The notes beneath the pieces were generated by a model. That model did no database searches, was not told the DNA's origin, and saw nothing but the letters and a program-made list of their open reading frames with translations. From NCBI RefSeq assembly GCF_025751575.1, contig NZ_JAOWLA010000010.1:62001-126000 (forward strand): a stretch of 64,000 bases of DNA. Direction: 5' to 3'. Shown one piece after another: positions 16,103 through 22,556 of this stretch. The position numbers and the translations under genes are program-made. Position 1 is the stretch's first letter; each line of letters opens with the position of its first letter. The stretch comes from Albidovulum sediminicola. Lineage in GTDB: Bacteria > Pseudomonadota > Alphaproteobacteria > Rhodobacterales > Rhodobacteraceae.

Positions 16103-17182
16103 TCAAACCTCATGCATCAGGCGGGCCAGATCCCCGCGCGCGCCCCGCGCAACGCTGCGTACACTGGGGTGAAGTGCCTCGGACGGGTCGCGGCCGATCT
16201 CGCGTTTCGCGCGCAGCAGGAACGCCTTGCCCCAACCGGTCCAGGACCCGACCGACGGCGCCTTGACGTCCGTGGGAAAATCGCCCCGCCAATCGATCGG
16301 CAATACCAGCCCGCGCGCCTCTGCCTTTTCCAGCATCCAGACCAGCGGGATGTTGGTCAGCGGTCGCGCGGATTGGTACTCCCCGACCTGGCCACCAATG
16401 TCACCATGGGTCCCCCTGAACCAGACCTGTTCGACCTGGCCGGGCGCGGCACCTGCGGTCGTATCCCACAAGAGCGGATCGTAGGCCGCGCGCGTCTCAT
16501 CGAGCGCGAGCGCGTGGTAACCATGCCGGATATGAGGGCCCAGCGCGTGGCTGTGAAACTCATGCTGGGGTTCGGTCCAGCTCCAGAGGAACGGCAGCCT
16601 GAGACCCAGCGCCTTGACGGTATCGAAAACGCCGATCATCTCGATCGAGACCTTCTCGTGGCAGGTCTTGCGGACGAAGATATCGCGGGCGGCGGACCGG
16701 TCGGCCCGGCGATAATAGCGATAGGCCAGTTGCACGTTACGCTCGATCGCGCAGTCGGCGCGCAAGAGCCCGACCGCGTCGATGATGCCGGCAAGCGAGC
16801 GGACCGCGAAGGCCCCGCGCGAGAATCCGAACAGAAACACCCGGTCGCCCGGGCGGTAGCGCGTCGCAAGCCAGCCGTAGGCGCGCTGGATCTGCCGGTT
16901 GATACCCTTGCCCATGGCGACATCGCGCGCGTCGCGCCAACTGCGCCACTGCACGCCGGGCTCGTAATAAAGCGACACGCGGGCCGACTGCGGTACGGCA
17001 CGCAATGTGCGGTAGATCCGGCCGATATTGGTTTCCTGCCCGAAATCGAGCGAGGACATCGTGCCGTCGATCAGGATGACATGGTCGGTGGGACCGCGGC
17101 CACGCGCGGGCGCCCTCACTTCGACCGCGGCCCGGCGGCCGAGCCTGAGCAAGCCCCAAAGCCTGCGCGCAACATCGCGCAT
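16103..17182 (-). CDS. DUF2235 alpha/beta hydrolase (Tle1-type phospholipase fold)
   Basis: A 359-residue protein with the DUF2235 / T6SS phospholipase Tle1-like catalytic domain. The nucleophile Ser121 sits in GFSRGAF, Asp187 in GVFDTVKALG, and His259 in WFRGTHGDIGG, which together make a plausible Ser-Asp-His triad. The early VILIDGTMSS strand is also typical. There is no signal peptide. No VgrG, PAAR or immunity gene lies nearby, so a type VI effector role is not supported here; a lone cytoplasmic lipase or esterase is as likely. The ATG at 17182 follows AAAGGAGA, better than upstream alternatives. Confidence 0.85.
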   Translation of the reverse strand: MRDVARRLWGLLRLGRRAAVEVRAPARGRGPTDHVILIDGTMSSLDFGQETNIGRIYRTLRAVPQSARVSLYYEPGVQWRSWRDARDVAMGKGINRQIQRAYGWLATRYRPGDRVFLFGFSRGAFAVRSLAGIIDAVGLLRADCAIERNVQLAYRYYRRADRSAARDIFVRKTCHEKVSIEMIGVFDTVKALGLRLPFLWSWTEPQHEFHSHALGPHIRHGYHALALDETRAAYDPLLWDTTAGAAPGQVEQVWFRGTHGDIGGQVGEYQSARPLTNIPLVWMLEKAEARGLVLPIDWRGDFPTDVKAPSVGSWTGWGKAFLLRAKREIGRDPSEALHPSVRSVARGARGDLARLMHEV

Positions 17183-17315
17183 GGTCCTGCCGTCTCCTTT
17201 CCCGGCTACCCCCCTGGGGACCATCATCACCGTCCGCAGCCCATCCGTCCAGCAAAGATCCCGTGACGTTTCCGTGTCGTGTTCGCGAGCGCAACAATGC
17301 TGGGAATTCATGAAC

Positions 17316-17347
17316 AAAACCCCCACGGGGCGGGCCTCGTGCGGGGG
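17316..17347 (-). terminator. probable terminator behind the decarboxylase pseudogene
   Basis: On the minus strand CCCCCGCACG pairs with CGTGGGGG (one bulge) and is followed by TTTTGTT. It lies 23 bases after the end of the decarboxylase remnant and would end its transcript. Confidence 0.55.
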
Positions 17348-17369: not shown

Positions 17370-18223
17370 TCACTGCGCGAGCGACATCACCGTGGCAATC
17401 GACAGGTCGCCAAAACCGTTGAACCGCGTGTTGGTCGCGGTCGAATAGGCACCCATTCCGGCGAAGATCAGGTCGTCGCCTTCCTCCATATCGTCCGGCA
17501 GGGGAAGGTCCCCCGGCAGACGGTCGACCGAGTCGCAGGTCGGACCGAAGACGACGTGGTCGCGGGGCGCGCCGCACCGCGGCTCACCGCGCCCCGGCTC
17601 GCAGACCAGCGCCGGCGGGTTACCCTCGAACGTTTCCTGCGCCACGCGCCCGATCAGCGCGAAGATCGCGTCAAGCTGCGGGCGCTCGGCCTGACGGCGG
17701 TGCGAAGGGAAGCCGCCGCCGACATTCAGCCGTCGGGCGCTGACGCCCGAGACCCGGCAGATCTCTGCCGCCGCGCGCAGATAGGCGTCCCAGGCCATCG
17801 GATCGGTACATTGCGTGCCGGGGTGGAAGGTGAGCGCAGGGACGAAGCCCCATGCCGGGCGCGGATCGGGTCGTCGTAGTGCATCGCGGCACCGGGAGCG
17901 AGGCCTGCAACCATCTCGATCTCGGCGGGGGAGGCCACGTCGAACCCCTTGACGCCTGCGGCGACGAGGTTCTGGATCACCATCTCCTCCGGGTTCGACG
18001 TCACCACATAGGTGACCATCCCCGGAAATCCGCCGACAAAGCGCCAGGCGGTCGCCTGAAGAACCGTGGGCGAAAAGAACATCACCGGCGCGTCCGGCCG
18101 TTGCGTGCGCAGAAATTCGGACGATTCACCCAGATCGTCGAGGAAAGCCCCATCGGCGTTCTCCTGCCAACAAGGCGCAGCCACCTCATACCCCGACACC
18201 ACGGTTGTAAAGCGCTTACGCAT
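17370..18223 (-). pseudogene. decayed ornithine/diaminopimelate-type PLP decarboxylase (fold III)
   Basis: Two reading frames together give most of an ornithine-decarboxylase-family protein. The first covers PVMFFSPTVLQATAWRF to AAMHYDDPIRA; the second continues with FVPALTFHPGTQCTDPMAW to the end. Between them roughly 70 residues expected in the family are absent and the frame changes, at about 17849-17865. A second block of about 50 residues, including the usual NDGIYGG region, is missing in frame after CEPGR (about 17565-17592). The PLP-binding lysine, normally in YAVKANP or YAVKSNP, is Thr here (YVVTSNP). The rest is well conserved, so the loss looks recent. The start at 18223 is approximate. 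A divergent Lrp regulator follows. Confidence 0.85.
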
Positions 18224-18345
18224 TTGACCAAACCAGGTAAGGTGCGTATGAGCAGCCCTTTTTCCTGAACGTGCGCCGCGACATGGGCGCATTCCGACCG
18301 ATCTGAAGAGTGTATTCGTCAAAATTTCCTGTTAAAATGACGGAA

Positions 18346-18372: not shown

Positions 18373-18804
18373 ATGGATGAACTCGACAAGACCATTCTGT
18401 CCCAACTGGGCGCGGATGCCCGCATCTCGGTGGCGACGCTGGCGCGCAAACTGAAGGTTGCAAGGTCGACCGTCCAGGCACGCCTTGAGCGGTTGGAGAG
18501 CACTGGCGTCATCGCGGGCTACACCGTCAAGCTGGGCGAGGCCGCCCGCCAGGATCGCATCCGCGCGACGATCCTTCTCAACATCGAGCCGCGCGCACAG
18601 GCGGCGGTTCTGTCGCGGCTCAAGACCATCCCGGAGGTCGAGCGGGCCCATACGACCTCGGGCCGGGTCGATCTGCTGCTACATGTCGCCGCCGCCTCGA
18701 CCACGATCCTCGACAATGTCCTGGATCAGATCGGCGCGCTGACCGGGGTGAAAAGCTCCGAAAGCCTCATTCACCTGTCGACCAAGATCGACCGCGCGGC
18801 GTAA
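18373..18804 (+). CDS. Lrp/AsnC-family transcriptional regulator
   Basis: About 143 residues from MDELDKTILSQL: a winged helix (LARKLKVARSTVQARLERLE) followed by a C-terminal RAM/ligand domain ending with HLSTKID. An earlier ATG at 18337 would add 12 residues; neither has a strong ribosome binding site, and the chosen start matches the usual family N-terminus. It is divergent from the decarboxylase remnant, which was perhaps once its target, so an amino acid or polyamine effector is plausible. Its 3' end overlaps the convergent LysR gene by 34 bases. Confidence 0.8.
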   Translation: MDELDKTILSQLGADARISVATLARKLKVARSTVQARLERLESTGVIAGYTVKLGEAARQDRIRATILLNIEPRAQAAVLSRLKTIPEVERAHTTSGRVDLLLHVAAASTTILDNVLDQIGALTGVKSSESLIHLSTKIDRAA

Positions 18805-19682
18805 TCCGCCATCCGGTCGATGAGCCAGGCGCGGAAGGCCCGCGCGGGGCGGCGCAGCGTGCCCGCGTCGGGATAGACGAGGTGGTAGAACTCCAGCCCC
18901 GGCACCGCGACACCCGGCAGGCAGGGGACAAGACCTTGGGCCGCCATGATCGGGTCGCTCGCCGGCGCGCGGGCAAGCGCCACCCCCGCCCCCTGCCCCG
19001 CCAGCGCCGCCGCCATGACCGTGGAATCGACCATCCGGAACCGCGCCCCTGCCCCAAGGATGCGCAGCGTCTCAAAGACATGCGGCCATCCCGCGCGATG
19101 GGTCGCGACCTCAAGCAGCGGGTGGGACAACAGATCGGCGGGCGTGCGGATCGTTGCCGCGATCTCTGGCCGGGCGACGGGATAAAGTGTCTCCCCGATC
19201 AGCCGGTCATGCGCGGGGCCGAAGGCCGACGGCGCGCCGAAGATGATCTTCAGATCGCTGAAGGCATGGATGAAATCGCCCACCGCGTTTCCCGTCGTCA
19301 GCATGAGCGCGATATCGGGGTGGCGGGTCGTGAAATCGGTGTAGAGCGGCGCCAAGACCCCTTGCGCGAAGATATGGACCGCCTGGACATAAAGCCGCTC
19401 TTCCCGCGCGCGGCCGAAAAGGCCCGCAGTCGAGGTTTCCAGCGACACCAGCGACGCCTGAACGGAGGGCAGATAGGCGCGACCCGCCTCTGTCAGGCGC
19501 ACGGCATGGGCGTGGCGGATGAAAAGCGCGGTGCCCAGGTGCGTCTCCAGCGCCTTGACCTGCTGGCTGACGGCCGGGGCCGACATGTTCAACTCCGCCG
19601 CCGCACGGGCAAAGCTTTCGGTGCGCGCCGCGGCCTCGAAGACACGGAGCCAGTTGAGCGAGGGGATGCGGGTACGTTCCAT
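18771..19682 (-). CDS. LysR-family regulator (GcvA-like subgroup), probable regulator of the adjacent dioxygenase operon
   Basis: A 303-residue LysR-type protein. The start MERTRIPSLNWLRVFEAAAR and helix LNMSAPAVSQQVKALE are typical of the GcvA/TrpI-like group, and a type 2 periplasmic-binding effector domain follows. The ATG at 19682 is taken from the family start; upstream in-frame codons run through the intergenic operator. It is divergent from the PhyH dioxygenase and HD oxygenase genes with 103 bases between starts. A perfect T-N11-A palindrome lies just before its own start, so it very likely regulates both itself and the oxygenase pair. The effector is unknown; a phosphonate is a good candidate. 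Confidence 0.88.
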   Translation of the reverse strand: MERTRIPSLNWLRVFEAAARTESFARAAAELNMSAPAVSQQVKALETHLGTALFIRHAHAVRLTEAGRAYLPSVQASLVSLETSTAGLFGRAREERLYVQAVHIFAQGVLAPLYTDFTTRHPDIALMLTTGNAVGDFIHAFSDLKIIFGAPSAFGPAHDRLIGETLYPVARPEIAATIRTPADLLSHPLLEVATHRAGWPHVFETLRILGAGARFRMVDSTVMAAALAGQGAGVALARAPASDPIMAAQGLVPCLPGVAVPGLEFYHLVYPDAGTLRRPARAFRAWLIDRMADYAARSILVDR

Positions 19683-19691
19683 GCGCAAGGA

Positions 19692-19704
19692 TAAGCTCAG
19701 CTTA
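19692..19704. promoter_or_regulatory. LysR-type operator (perfect T-N11-A palindrome)
   Basis: TAAGCT-C-AGCTTA is a perfect inverted repeat with the T-N11-A layout of LysR-family binding sites. It lies 9 bases upstream of the LysR start and 81 bases upstream of the divergent dioxygenase start. The position suits autorepression and activation of the oxygenase operon. Confidence 0.65.
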
Positions 19705-19785: not shown

Positions 19786-20670
19786 ATGAACATACCGCTA
19801 TCCGGCGGCCGGCTCGGCAAGGCGGCGGTCGAACGCTACTGGGAGGACGGCTATCTGCACCCCATCCGGGCCATCAGCCCGGCGCAGGCGGCCCAGTGGC
19901 GCGCCGAGTTGGAGGAGATCGAGCGGGACTGGCTCGATGCCGGGCTGCCCCTGCCGCTCAACACCTACAAGCGCGTCAACGCGAATTGCGTGATGCCGCT
20001 GGCCCACCGGATCGCCACCCACCCCGGCATTCTCGACGTGGTCGAGGGGGTGCTGGGCCCGGACCTGCTGATCTACGGGGTCGAGTTCTTCATCAAGGAG
20101 CCGCACACACGCCACAAGGTCTCCATGCACCAGGATCTGACCTACTGGGGGCTTGGCGCCATCGACGGCATGGTGACGATGTGGCTGGCGCTTTCGCCCG
20201 CCACATGCGCCTCGGGCTGCATGGAGTTCGTGGCCGGGTCCCACCGCAACCCGATCCTACCGCATGAGGACACTTTTGCCGAGGACAACCTGCTGAGCCG
20301 CGGGCAGGAGGTCAGGGTCGATGTCGCCCCCGAGGACCGGGTGCCGATCGAGTTGATGCCGGGGGAGTTGAGCCTGCACCACGGGCTGACGATCCACGGG
20401 TCGGGCCCCAACACCACCGACGACCGCCGCATCGGCGCCGTGGTGCGCTACCTGCGCCCCGAGGTCGCGCAAGAGGTCGGCGACCGGGACTACGCCATGC
20501 TGGCGCGCGGCGCGGACAGGGTCGGGAACTTCACCCTTTATGCCCCGCCGGTGTCGAATTTCAGCCCCGAAAGCCTTGCGCTTTACGAGGAAATCCGCTC
20601 CGCTCAGGGCAAGTTCCTGATGCGGGGCACCAAGAACGACAAGGGACTTTACGCGGAGGAACGCGCATGA
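19786..20670 (+). CDS. PhyH-family 2-oxoglutarate dioxygenase (TmpA/PhnY-like)
   Basis: A 294-residue Fe(II)/2-oxoglutarate dioxygenase. Candidate iron ligands are His115 and Asp117 (SMHQDLTYWG) and His204 (LTIHGSGPN), with Arg214 or Arg215 positioned to bind 2-oxoglutarate. The next gene, overlapping by 4 bases, encodes an HD-domain diiron oxygenase. A PhyH dioxygenase paired with this type of HD protein is the signature of oxidative phosphonate catabolism. PhnY hydroxylates 2-aminoethylphosphonate and TmpA hydroxylates its trimethylated analogue at the carbon next to phosphorus. Which substrate applies here cannot be decided by eye. A LysR regulator is divergent. Confidence 0.8.
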   Translation: MNIPLSGGRLGKAAVERYWEDGYLHPIRAISPAQAAQWRAELEEIERDWLDAGLPLPLNTYKRVNANCVMPLAHRIATHPGILDVVEGVLGPDLLIYGVEFFIKEPHTRHKVSMHQDLTYWGLGAIDGMVTMWLALSPATCASGCMEFVAGSHRNPILPHEDTFAEDNLLSRGQEVRVDVAPEDRVPIELMPGELSLHHGLTIHGSGPNTTDDRRIGAVVRYLRPEVAQEVGDRDYAMLARGADRVGNFTLYAPPVSNFSPESLALYEEIRSAQGKFLMRGTKNDKGLYAEERA

Positions 20671-21284
20671 AGACGGTCAACTTCACCCAGATGAAGGACG
20701 GTACCAAGGAAGAGTACGAATTCCTGACGGCGCATGAGATCGACCATACGAAACATACCGCCGACCGGTTGCTGAGCGCTCTCGTCGAGTTGGACAAGAG
20801 CCTGTCGGGCTACAAGATCACCCGGCTTGGCCATTCGGTCCAGTCCGCCACGCGGGCCTGGCGCGACGGGGCGGACATCGACTGGGTGGTCTCGGCGCTG
20901 CTCCACGACATCGGCGACATCTACGCGCCCTACAACCACGACGAGTACGCGGCCACGATCCTCAAGCCCTTCGTGCGCGAACAATGCACCTGGTGCGTGC
21001 AGACGCATGGCGATTTCCAGATGCTCTATTACGGGCACCACCTGGAGGGCTTCGACCAGAACAAGCGCGAACGCCACCGGGGGAACCCCTATTTCGACGA
21101 CTGCGCGGAGTTCTGCGAGCGTTGGGACCAGGCGAGCTTCGATCCCGACTACGAGGATCTGCCGATCGAGTTCTTCGCCCCCATGGTGCGGGAGGTTTTC
21201 GACCGCAAACCCTATGACCCATCGGTCATTCGGCGTGGCGAGCGGGTCCCCCTGACGGATGCGGCGGTCGCGGCAACGCGCTGA
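20667..21284 (+). CDS. HD-domain diiron oxygenase (TmpB/PhnZ-like)
   Basis: A 205-residue HD-domain protein that would usually be labelled a phosphohydrolase. Histidines and aspartates suited to a dinuclear iron site are His56, the His80-Asp81 pair in LLHDIGD, His91, His114 in QTHGDF, and an Asp near 154. LGHSVQSATRAWRDGAD and LLHDIGD-x-x-APYNH resemble PhnZ and TmpB, mixed-valent diiron oxygenases that split the C-P bond of an alpha-hydroxyphosphonate. They release phosphate and leave glycine (PhnZ) or glycine betaine (TmpB). The ATG overlaps the stop of the dioxygenase gene (ATGA), so the two are translationally coupled. The assignment rests on context plus motifs. Confidence 0.8.
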   Translation: MKTVNFTQMKDGTKEEYEFLTAHEIDHTKHTADRLLSALVELDKSLSGYKITRLGHSVQSATRAWRDGADIDWVVSALLHDIGDIYAPYNHDEYAATILKPFVREQCTWCVQTHGDFQMLYYGHHLEGFDQNKRERHRGNPYFDDCAEFCERWDQASFDPDYEDLPIEFFAPMVREVFDRKPYDPSVIRRGERVPLTDAAVAATR

Positions 21285-21362: not shown

Positions 21363-22556
21363 ATGCTGATCGACGCGCTCATCCTCGCTGCTGGCCTCGG
21401 CACCGCCGGGCTGCTCCTTTGGCCCCGCCTCGCGCGGGCCCGGCTTTGGGGTGCGACAGTGACGCCGCTGGCGTCCATCATCGGGTCAGGGTTTCTCGTG
21501 CTCGGGCCGGTGCTGGAACACAGCTACGGGGTCTACGCACCCTTCGTGATGGCGCTGCTTTGCCTGGCGGCCTATGCCTTCGGCGGCGCGATCCGCTTCA
21601 ACATCACCCGCCGCATGGACGGCAAGGGCCACCGCAGCGCGGCCGAGGAGCGGCTGGAAACGCTCGCCTCCTGGGCGCTGGCCTTCGCCTATGTGATCTC
21701 GGTCGCCTATTACCTGAACCTGTTCGGCGCCTTCGCGGTCAGCCTGACACCCTTCGCGAGCGCCCTTGGGGGCCGGATCGTCACCACGGCGGTCTTCGGC
21801 GTCATCCTTGCCACCGGCTGGCTGCACGGGTTCCGGGCGCTGGAGCGGATGGAGCAGATCTCCGTCGGCATCAAGCTGGCCATCATCGCCGCCATGCTTG
21901 CCGGGCTCGCCTTCTACTTCGGCGGGAAGCTTTCGGACGGCGGCCTTGTCTTCGACCCGCCGACGCTGACCGGCTGGCCTGCCGTCCAACTGGCCTTCGG
22001 CCTGATCGTCACGGTCCAGGGGTTCGAGACCGCGCGGTATCTGGGCGCCGAATATGACGCGCCGACGCGGCGGCAAGCGATGCGCATCGCGCAATGGCTC
22101 TCGACCGCGATCTATCTCGCCTATATCGGGCTGATCGCCTATCTCTTCACCCCGGACGAGGCGCAGCTTTCGGAAACCGCGATCATCGACATGATGCGGA
22201 TCGTGGCGCCTGTGCTACCGGGGCTCCTGGTCGCGGCGGCGCTGGCGGCGCAGTTTTCGGCAGCCGTTGCCGATACCGGTGGCGCCGGCGGATTGGTCAG
22301 CGAACTGACCCGTGGTCGTATCCCGACGCGCAGCGCCTATCTGGTGCTTGTCGCCGCAGGGCTGGCGCTGACCTGGGCCGCCGATATCTTCGCGATCATT
22401 GCCTACGCCTCGCGCGCCTTCGCGCTTTACTATGCGATCCAGGCCTTGATCGCCGCCGCCGGGGCGCGCGAAACGTCCCGCCCGCAGGCCCTTGCCTATG
22501 CCGCGCTGGCGGGGCTCGGTGCCATGATGGCGATCTTCGGAACCTCGGCCGAATAG
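21363..22556 (+). CDS. APC-superfamily-like membrane permease
   Basis: A 397-residue protein with about ten or eleven hydrophobic segments. The start [35 protein letters not shown] resembles the first helices of amino acid/polyamine/organocation permeases, with a G-S-G break in the helix. The family placement is tentative. It lies 78 bases after the HD oxygenase on the same strand and could be a transporter co-transcribed with the oxygenase pair, or an unrelated gene before valS. No substrate can be assigned. Confidence 0.7.

Follow-up and report, generated by a model that had tools for sequence, protein, structure and literature searches.

A PhyH-type hydroxylase and an HD-domain protein of an uncharacterised subgroup in Albidovulum sediminicola: a coupled pair that probably does not act on phosphonates

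Two overlapping genes in a 64-kb window of the Albidovulum sediminicola genome (by window we mean the whole stretch of DNA analysed) probably encode a hydroxylase and diiron-oxygenase pair. The second protein belongs to an unstudied branch of the HD-domain enzymes that split phosphonates and inositol. Our preferred reading, to which we give a probability of about 0.4, is that the genes form a two-gene oxidative module in which the HD subgroup would cleave a C-C bond, and not a C-P bond, of a hydroxylated quaternary-amine or carnitine-like compound. A first-pass annotation had proposed oxidative C-P cleavage of 2-aminoethylphosphonate, its trimethyl form or a related phosphonate; the pair probably does not act on phosphonates, and we favour quaternary amines because of changed residues in the pocket of the HD protein and because of the gene company of its relatives. 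The part of a 2020 review used here lists MIOX, PhnZ and TmpB as HD-domain oxygenases, three in all (PMC8177086); a section of a later review, from 2023, extends the list by a variant of PhnZ and a fungal fusion, all of them for phosphonates (PMC10574752). The present subgroup is not described in the titles and abstracts found by a search of the open-licence literature, and it carries invariant pocket residues of its own. Knowing its substrate would enlarge a small enzyme class by one reaction and show whether such pairs belong in sequence-survey counts of phosphonate degraders.

Both genes lie on the forward strand, PhyH at 19786..20670 (294 aa) and HD at 20667..21284 (205 aa), with the 4-nt overlap first reported. 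The upstream product is a PhyH-family Fe(II)/2-oxoglutarate oxygenase (Pfam PhyH, 105.2 bits, cut-off 22, E 7.7e-30). The H-x-D...H site and 2-oxoglutarate arginine described by the annotation were borne out, since the metal residues H115, D117 and H204 and the 2-oxoglutarate Arg, R215, are invariant in 29/29 aligned relatives. For the predicted model of this protein (pLDDT 90.8) the nearest solved fold is the PhyH-type monooxygenase ThoJ (6zyl, E 1.2e-26, 32% identity), which is also the nearest solved relative by sequence (6zyk/6zyl, 9.7e-39), but identity between ThoJ and the window protein is just 30–32%. To our knowledge ThoJ is not part of any two-gene HD module. None of the curated NCBIfam models reached its cut-off with the PhyH protein: the model of methylphosphonate hydroxylase (PhnY type) gave 14.9 bits against 500, and TmpA was absent from the matches at E<=0.1. 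A halogenase reading (TIGR01762, 45.4 bits versus a cut-off of 226.3) was dropped because the Asp of H-x-D, which halogenases lack, is kept. Judging from its family, the enzyme would hydroxylate a small organic acid or a betaine at a C-H position.

The HD protein scores just below the cut-off of Pfam HD (21.1 bits versus 22, E 3.9e-4). The motifs LLHDIGD and QTHGDF, earlier taken for an HD core with extra histidines suited to a diiron centre, are present, and all six ligands of such a centre (H56, H80, D81, H91, H114 and D154) are invariant in 64/64 aligned relatives. This alignment (A2) holds 64 of the 157 HD proteins retained from 161 after four outside 180–240 aa had been dropped; a separate alignment left out 11 of 79 crude translations that held a stop, their start having been placed too far upstream. 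A Foldseek search of the PDB with the AlphaFold model (pLDDT 96.8) gave ten matches at E<=0.001, all of them PhnZ or TmpB, with 22–24% identity and TM to the query of 0.56–0.63. The nearest fold among the 50 of 144 matches listed is thus not a hydrolase, MIOX comes next after PhnZ/TmpB, and the hydrolases YqeK and YfbR are absent from those 50. When the family profile was run against the PDB, PhnZ (5e-13) and TmpB (4e-11) were again first, with weaker matches to Cas10 (0.04) and a dGTPase-like protein (0.046). Since fold and profile matches are both led by PhnZ and TmpB, we place the protein nearest to the HD oxygenases, at 22–24% identity. MIOX shares with it a weak Pfam match, a six-ligand HD site and the lack of a YxxE loop, but that match remains below cut-off (20.1 bits versus 25, E 5.1e-4), and MIOX lies at E 0.06 in Foldseek and at 0.79 in the profile search, behind the dGTPase-like protein. 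Because the six ligands are kept and the ten significant PDB matches are all PhnZ or TmpB, a diiron oxygenase of an uncharacterised subgroup is the likeliest reading of the sequence. The ligand set and fold suggest that the protein would bind two irons, and it may act, like MIOX, PhnZ and TmpB, as an oxygenase with a mixed-valent Fe(II)/Fe(III) centre.

The same data bear on the alternative of a metal-dependent phosphohydrolase, in which the site of the HD protein would be dinuclear and the oxygenase genes nearby incidental. We consider this rather unlikely, as neither YqeK nor YfbR appears among the matches listed, the significant ones are all oxygenases, and HD genes are coupled to 2-oxoglutarate oxygenases of three families. 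It should be noted, however, that Arg53 is invariant in 64/64 relatives and stands exactly three residues ahead of the first metal His, where HD phosphohydrolases have an Arg, and that YqeK has the same six-ligand motif (both points from the consulted part of PMC8177086). One plasmid record also labels a relative as a phosphohydrolase; the other names given to annotated plasmid matches of the subgroup were only HD-domain protein, hypothetical and inositol oxygenase family protein.

In PhnZ and TmpB, unlike MIOX, a YxxE loop places its Glu within hydrogen-bonding distance of the substrate amino group, according to the section of the 2020 review used here (PMC8177086). No such loop was found in any of the 64 relatives within the 14 residues searched before the first metal His, and the position aligned to its Glu is aromatic in 63/64 (Tyr in 43, Phe in 20, with Cys in the remaining one). 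The HDxGH histidine is replaced by Asp (D84) in 64/64, so that the motif reads HDxGD, and the Lys four residues past the last metal His is Gln (Q118), also in 64/64; the changed pocket positions of the window protein are therefore Y49, D84 and Q118. Three TmpB-like controls, the window genome's own among them, have YLGE, HDIGH and HVAAK. We presume that the His and Lys of PhnZ corresponding to D84 and Q118 bind the phosphonate, the residues having been matched to PhnZ by sequence alignment. An aromatic residue in place of the amine-binding Glu would suit a trimethylammonium group.

The comparison with PhnZ and TmpB, which the annotation itself had named as a test of its proposal, has two sides: the iron ligands proposed at first are all kept (6/6), while the substrate residues, YxxE, His and Lys, are lost, so that on the substrate side the test goes against the phosphonate proposal. 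PhnY/PhnZ (for AEP and methylphosphonate) resembles the window pair in its two-gene layout, and among solved structures PhnZ comes closest to the HD protein in both profile and fold, but the curated models missed that protein by far, Phn-HD scoring 29.3 bits (cut-off 214.6), PhnZ1 24.1 (300) and TmpB 29.7 (300). Likewise, TmpA/TmpB of the TMAEP pathway in Leisingera caerulea has overlapping genes for a 2-oxoglutarate hydroxylase and an HD oxygenase with the same fold and six metal ligands, whereas the window partner is PhyH and not a member of the TmpA/butyrobetaine-dioxygenase family. By the tests run, the window pair falls outside both families; what survives of the earlier comparison is the coupling of a 2-oxoglutarate-type hydroxylase gene with one for an HD protein on the oxygenase branch.

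A true TmpA–TmpB pair is found on contig C11 of the window genome (G000; L111:6596-8346, reverse strand), where the genes overlap and both pass their cut-offs (TmpA 600.6 bits versus 400, TmpB 361.6 versus 300). The system proposed earlier is therefore present in the organism, at another site, and the window pair as a second TmpAB copy was rejected. A LysR-type match lies upstream of the pair on C11.

That the PhyH protein hydroxylates a phosphonate and the HD protein splits its C-P bond, with a pocket built differently from that of PhnZ and TmpB, is in our view quite improbable. The gene layout and fold would agree with it, and three HD relatives (L033, L144 and L232, of two origins) adjoin TmpA/butyrobetaine-dioxygenase-like enzymes, two of which were scored and match the TmpA model better than that of butyrobetaine dioxygenase (347.5 versus 266 bits in L033, 331.3 versus 300.4 in L232). 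However, these scores are below the cut-offs (400 for TmpA, 414.75 for butyrobetaine dioxygenase), and all three partners differ from the window genome's TmpA at the FNNRS stretch. The changed pocket, the genuine TmpAB elsewhere in the genome and the Pfam scan, which recognised no phosphonate gene among 13 neighbouring ORFs of the window, also speak against it. With curated models far below cut-off and the neighbours of relatives pointing to carnitine and quaternary amines, we set the phosphonate pathway and its C-P cleavage aside on pocket residues, family scores and gene context.

The carnitine link comes from 13 of 161 loci (not a frequency, since the 80 named loci were the best among 578) in which the HD gene is flanked by a BKACE-type gene on one side and a gene for carnitine dehydrogenase on the other; it makes the function of the HD protein directly testable. 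Gaps before the HD gene are 1–46 nt and those after it mostly –10 to +3 (117 in L092). By our operon rule these loci continue with genes for an acyl-CoA dehydrogenase (9), an ADP-forming-type CoA ligase (7) and an enoyl-CoA-hydratase-type protein (7). They are of the same kind as the caiX-cdhCAB-hocS operon of P. aeruginosa, which leads to glycine betaine and has a divergent AraC-family regulator, but no HD gene is named in the consulted part of that work (PMC5806209), and the window HD gene lies outside any such operon. In the one operon of this type that was scanned, L221, only the dehydrogenase passes a curated cut-off (595 bits, with 592 for carnitine 3-dehydrogenase); the hydratase is nearest to crotonobetainyl-CoA hydratase (316.1 versus 500), the BKACE-type gene reaches 228.6 versus 382, and the divergent regulator is nearest to GbdR (206.5 versus 480).

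The 13 HD proteins form one clade (SH-aLRT 95) in a quick tree of 157 loci with 65/155 weak inner branches; they are 68–77% identical to the window protein and include a member of the window's genus (L092 in genome G099). As the carnitine association is confined to one clade, it may reflect a single event. The mere presence of carnitine dehydrogenase is uninformative, because a match occurs in 160/196 genomes, and its co-occurrence with HD was discarded as evidence. The window genome has carnitine genes of its own on contig C44 (L269:4141-7245, forward strand), away from the window HD gene; there, a different gene of 212 aa fills the slot between the BKACE-type and dehydrogenase genes that belongs to HD in the 13 loci. 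The carnitine dehydrogenase is of a long form in L092 (486 aa) and L236 (477 aa) and measures 357–381 aa in the other 11 of the 13 loci. We take the long form to carry the thioesterase, and the idea that HD stands in for a missing betainyl-CoA thioesterase is weakened, since both long-form loci still have HD.

L033 has genes with the annotations choline-binding protein, choline dehydrogenase and aldehyde dehydrogenase. Rieske genes occur downstream of HD in L240 and, at a distance of 337 nt, in L067; the model closest to them is that of glycine betaine monooxygenase (153.7 and 99.7 bits against a cut-off of 670), and L241 shares the Rieske cluster of L240. A TMAO/DMSP-demethylase-like gene lies two places downstream of HD in L186, a taurine-dioxygenase-like gene adjoins it in L225 (232.7 versus 313), and an EutB-type gene near it in L244 is above cut-off. 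The 2-oxoglutarate oxygenases next to HD are thus of three families, PhyH (at least 37 loci), TmpA/butyrobetaine-dioxygenase-like and taurine-dioxygenase-like. Against the quaternary-amine reading stand Arg53 as a mark of hydrolases, the frequent occurrence of HD and PhyH apart from each other, the single carnitine clade, the lone dehydrogenase that reached its curated cut-off in the scanned carnitine operon, the 76 of 157 loci in the tree that are without any named neighbour, the location of the window genome's carnitine genes on another contig, and two ill-fitting neighbours, a class II aldolase (4 loci) and a sterol-desaturase-like protein (3 loci in the labelled set). A sterol-desaturase-type membrane gene lies directly 3' of HD in L032, L186, L192, L197 and L227, and in L032 and L197 it is followed by a gene annotated, in L032, as 3-methyl-2-oxobutanoate hydroxymethyltransferase.

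On the quaternary-amine reading, the most likely substrate would be a hydroxylated quaternary-amine or carnitine-like compound. By analogy with TmpB, the substrate hydroxyl would sit on one iron and O2 on the other, a C-H hydrogen would be abstracted and the neighbouring bond broken, so that the protein would split the bond adjacent to the hydroxyl. Gene context and pocket changes suggest glycine betaine or a similar acid as the product. The evidence behind this scheme lies in the fold, the ligands and the gene company. From (R)-1-hydroxy-2-trimethylaminoethylphosphonate, TmpB forms glycine betaine and phosphate, as stated in the section of the 2023 review used here (PMC10574752). In the boldest form of our proposal, the HD protein would be the carbon counterpart of TmpB, a mixed-valent diiron oxygenase that cleaves carnitine, or a hydroxy-betaine close to it, at a C-C bond; carnitine, in which CH2-COO replaces the phosphonate group of the TmpB substrate, would yield glycine betaine and a two-carbon acid. 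This specific version is unlikely as it stands; the two positions of the pocket presumed to bind the phosphonate are the very ones that have changed. PhyH would then act as an independent butyrobetaine-type hydroxylase, which a TmpA/butyrobetaine-dioxygenase-like enzyme would replace in other bacteria. If true, carnitine-like compounds could be turned into glycine betaine by a route that depends on oxygen and needs no CoA.

The subgroup occurs in 72/196 sampled genomes of the order (74 had matches, two of which were excluded as TmpB-type only), and in a sample of the phylum 59/398 genomes have a match at E<=1e-8; the neighbourhoods compared come from 40 of these matches with long flanks and from part of the others with short flanks only. 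PhyH was found at E<=1e-30 in 35/196 genomes, 34 of which also have the HD subgroup. A Fisher test, which ignores kinship and linkage, gave P = 7.7e-17 for this co-occurrence (both 34, PhyH only 1, HD only 38, neither 123) and, under the same limits, P = 1.2e-5 after removal of adjacent pairs (10/1/38/123). Of the 161 distinct HD loci, at least 37 have a PhyH gene immediately 5' of HD in the same orientation; this again is not a frequency, and it is a lower bound, as there are further pairs such as L090 and L099. Gaps range from –20 to +35 nt and are exactly –4 in 18/37. The pairing is thus more than chance, and it is not universal: many genomes have HD alone or PhyH alone.

Alternatively, the two proteins could belong to different routes, their genes only happening to share a location next to valS and being kept or lost independently. 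Where valS lies just downstream, HD is accompanied by PhyH in 17 loci and stands without it in 19, and PhyH occupies this site without HD in 5 of the 11 unpaired-PhyH regions examined (L256, L257, L261, L262 and L264). A LysR gene remains by PhyH where HD is absent, and 38/72 HD genomes are without PhyH at E<=1e-30. Such independence is not very probable, however, given the tight coupling of the genes, half of the 37 gaps or nearly so (18/37) being –4 nt, and given that 34/35 PhyH genomes hold an HD-subgroup gene; even where PhyH is unpaired, 10/11 genomes have one, which in eight belongs to a far clade with 43–44% identity. Across Roseobacter-type genomes the site upstream of valS holds PhyH and HD, HD alone or PhyH alone (the window, L256, L257, L261, L262, L264, L110 and others), and we regard it as a small swapping site.

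A gene for a LysR-type regulator (18771..19697, reverse strand; Pfam HTH_1 and LysR_substrate) is divergent from the PhyH gene and probably regulates the PhyH(-HD) unit; its kin, 60–67% identical, adjoin PhyH in L040, L257, L260 and L263, where the HD gene is not adjacent. Directly 3' of HD is an ORF of 397 aa (21363-22556, forward strand) without a Pfam family, hydrophobic and membrane-protein-like, which is followed by the valyl-tRNA synthetase gene (valS). A near relative, L176, has a 397-aa gene at the matching position. By Pfam, the 13 neighbouring ORFs comprise three regulators (two LysR, one AsnC-type), a transporter, a protease, a Tle1-like hydrolase, a two-piece decarboxylase, an aminotransferase, methylenetetrahydrofolate reductase, valyl-tRNA synthetase, a molybdopterin enzyme and the 397-aa ORF that lacks a family. 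The decarboxylase, of the pyridoxal-dependent ornithine/arginine type (17370-18322, reverse strand), is split into two pieces in different frames, with the C-terminal match at 17370-17798 and the N-terminal match at 17726-18322; relatives have a single gene of ~375 aa at this site, and in the window it is either a broken gene or a sequencing error. Next to it, at 16103-17326 (reverse strand), is the hydrolase with a Pfam T6SS_Tle1-like catalytic domain (4.7e-65), which recurs near the site in relatives (a cluster of 31) and is more reminiscent of a housekeeping neighbour than of a secretion-system component.
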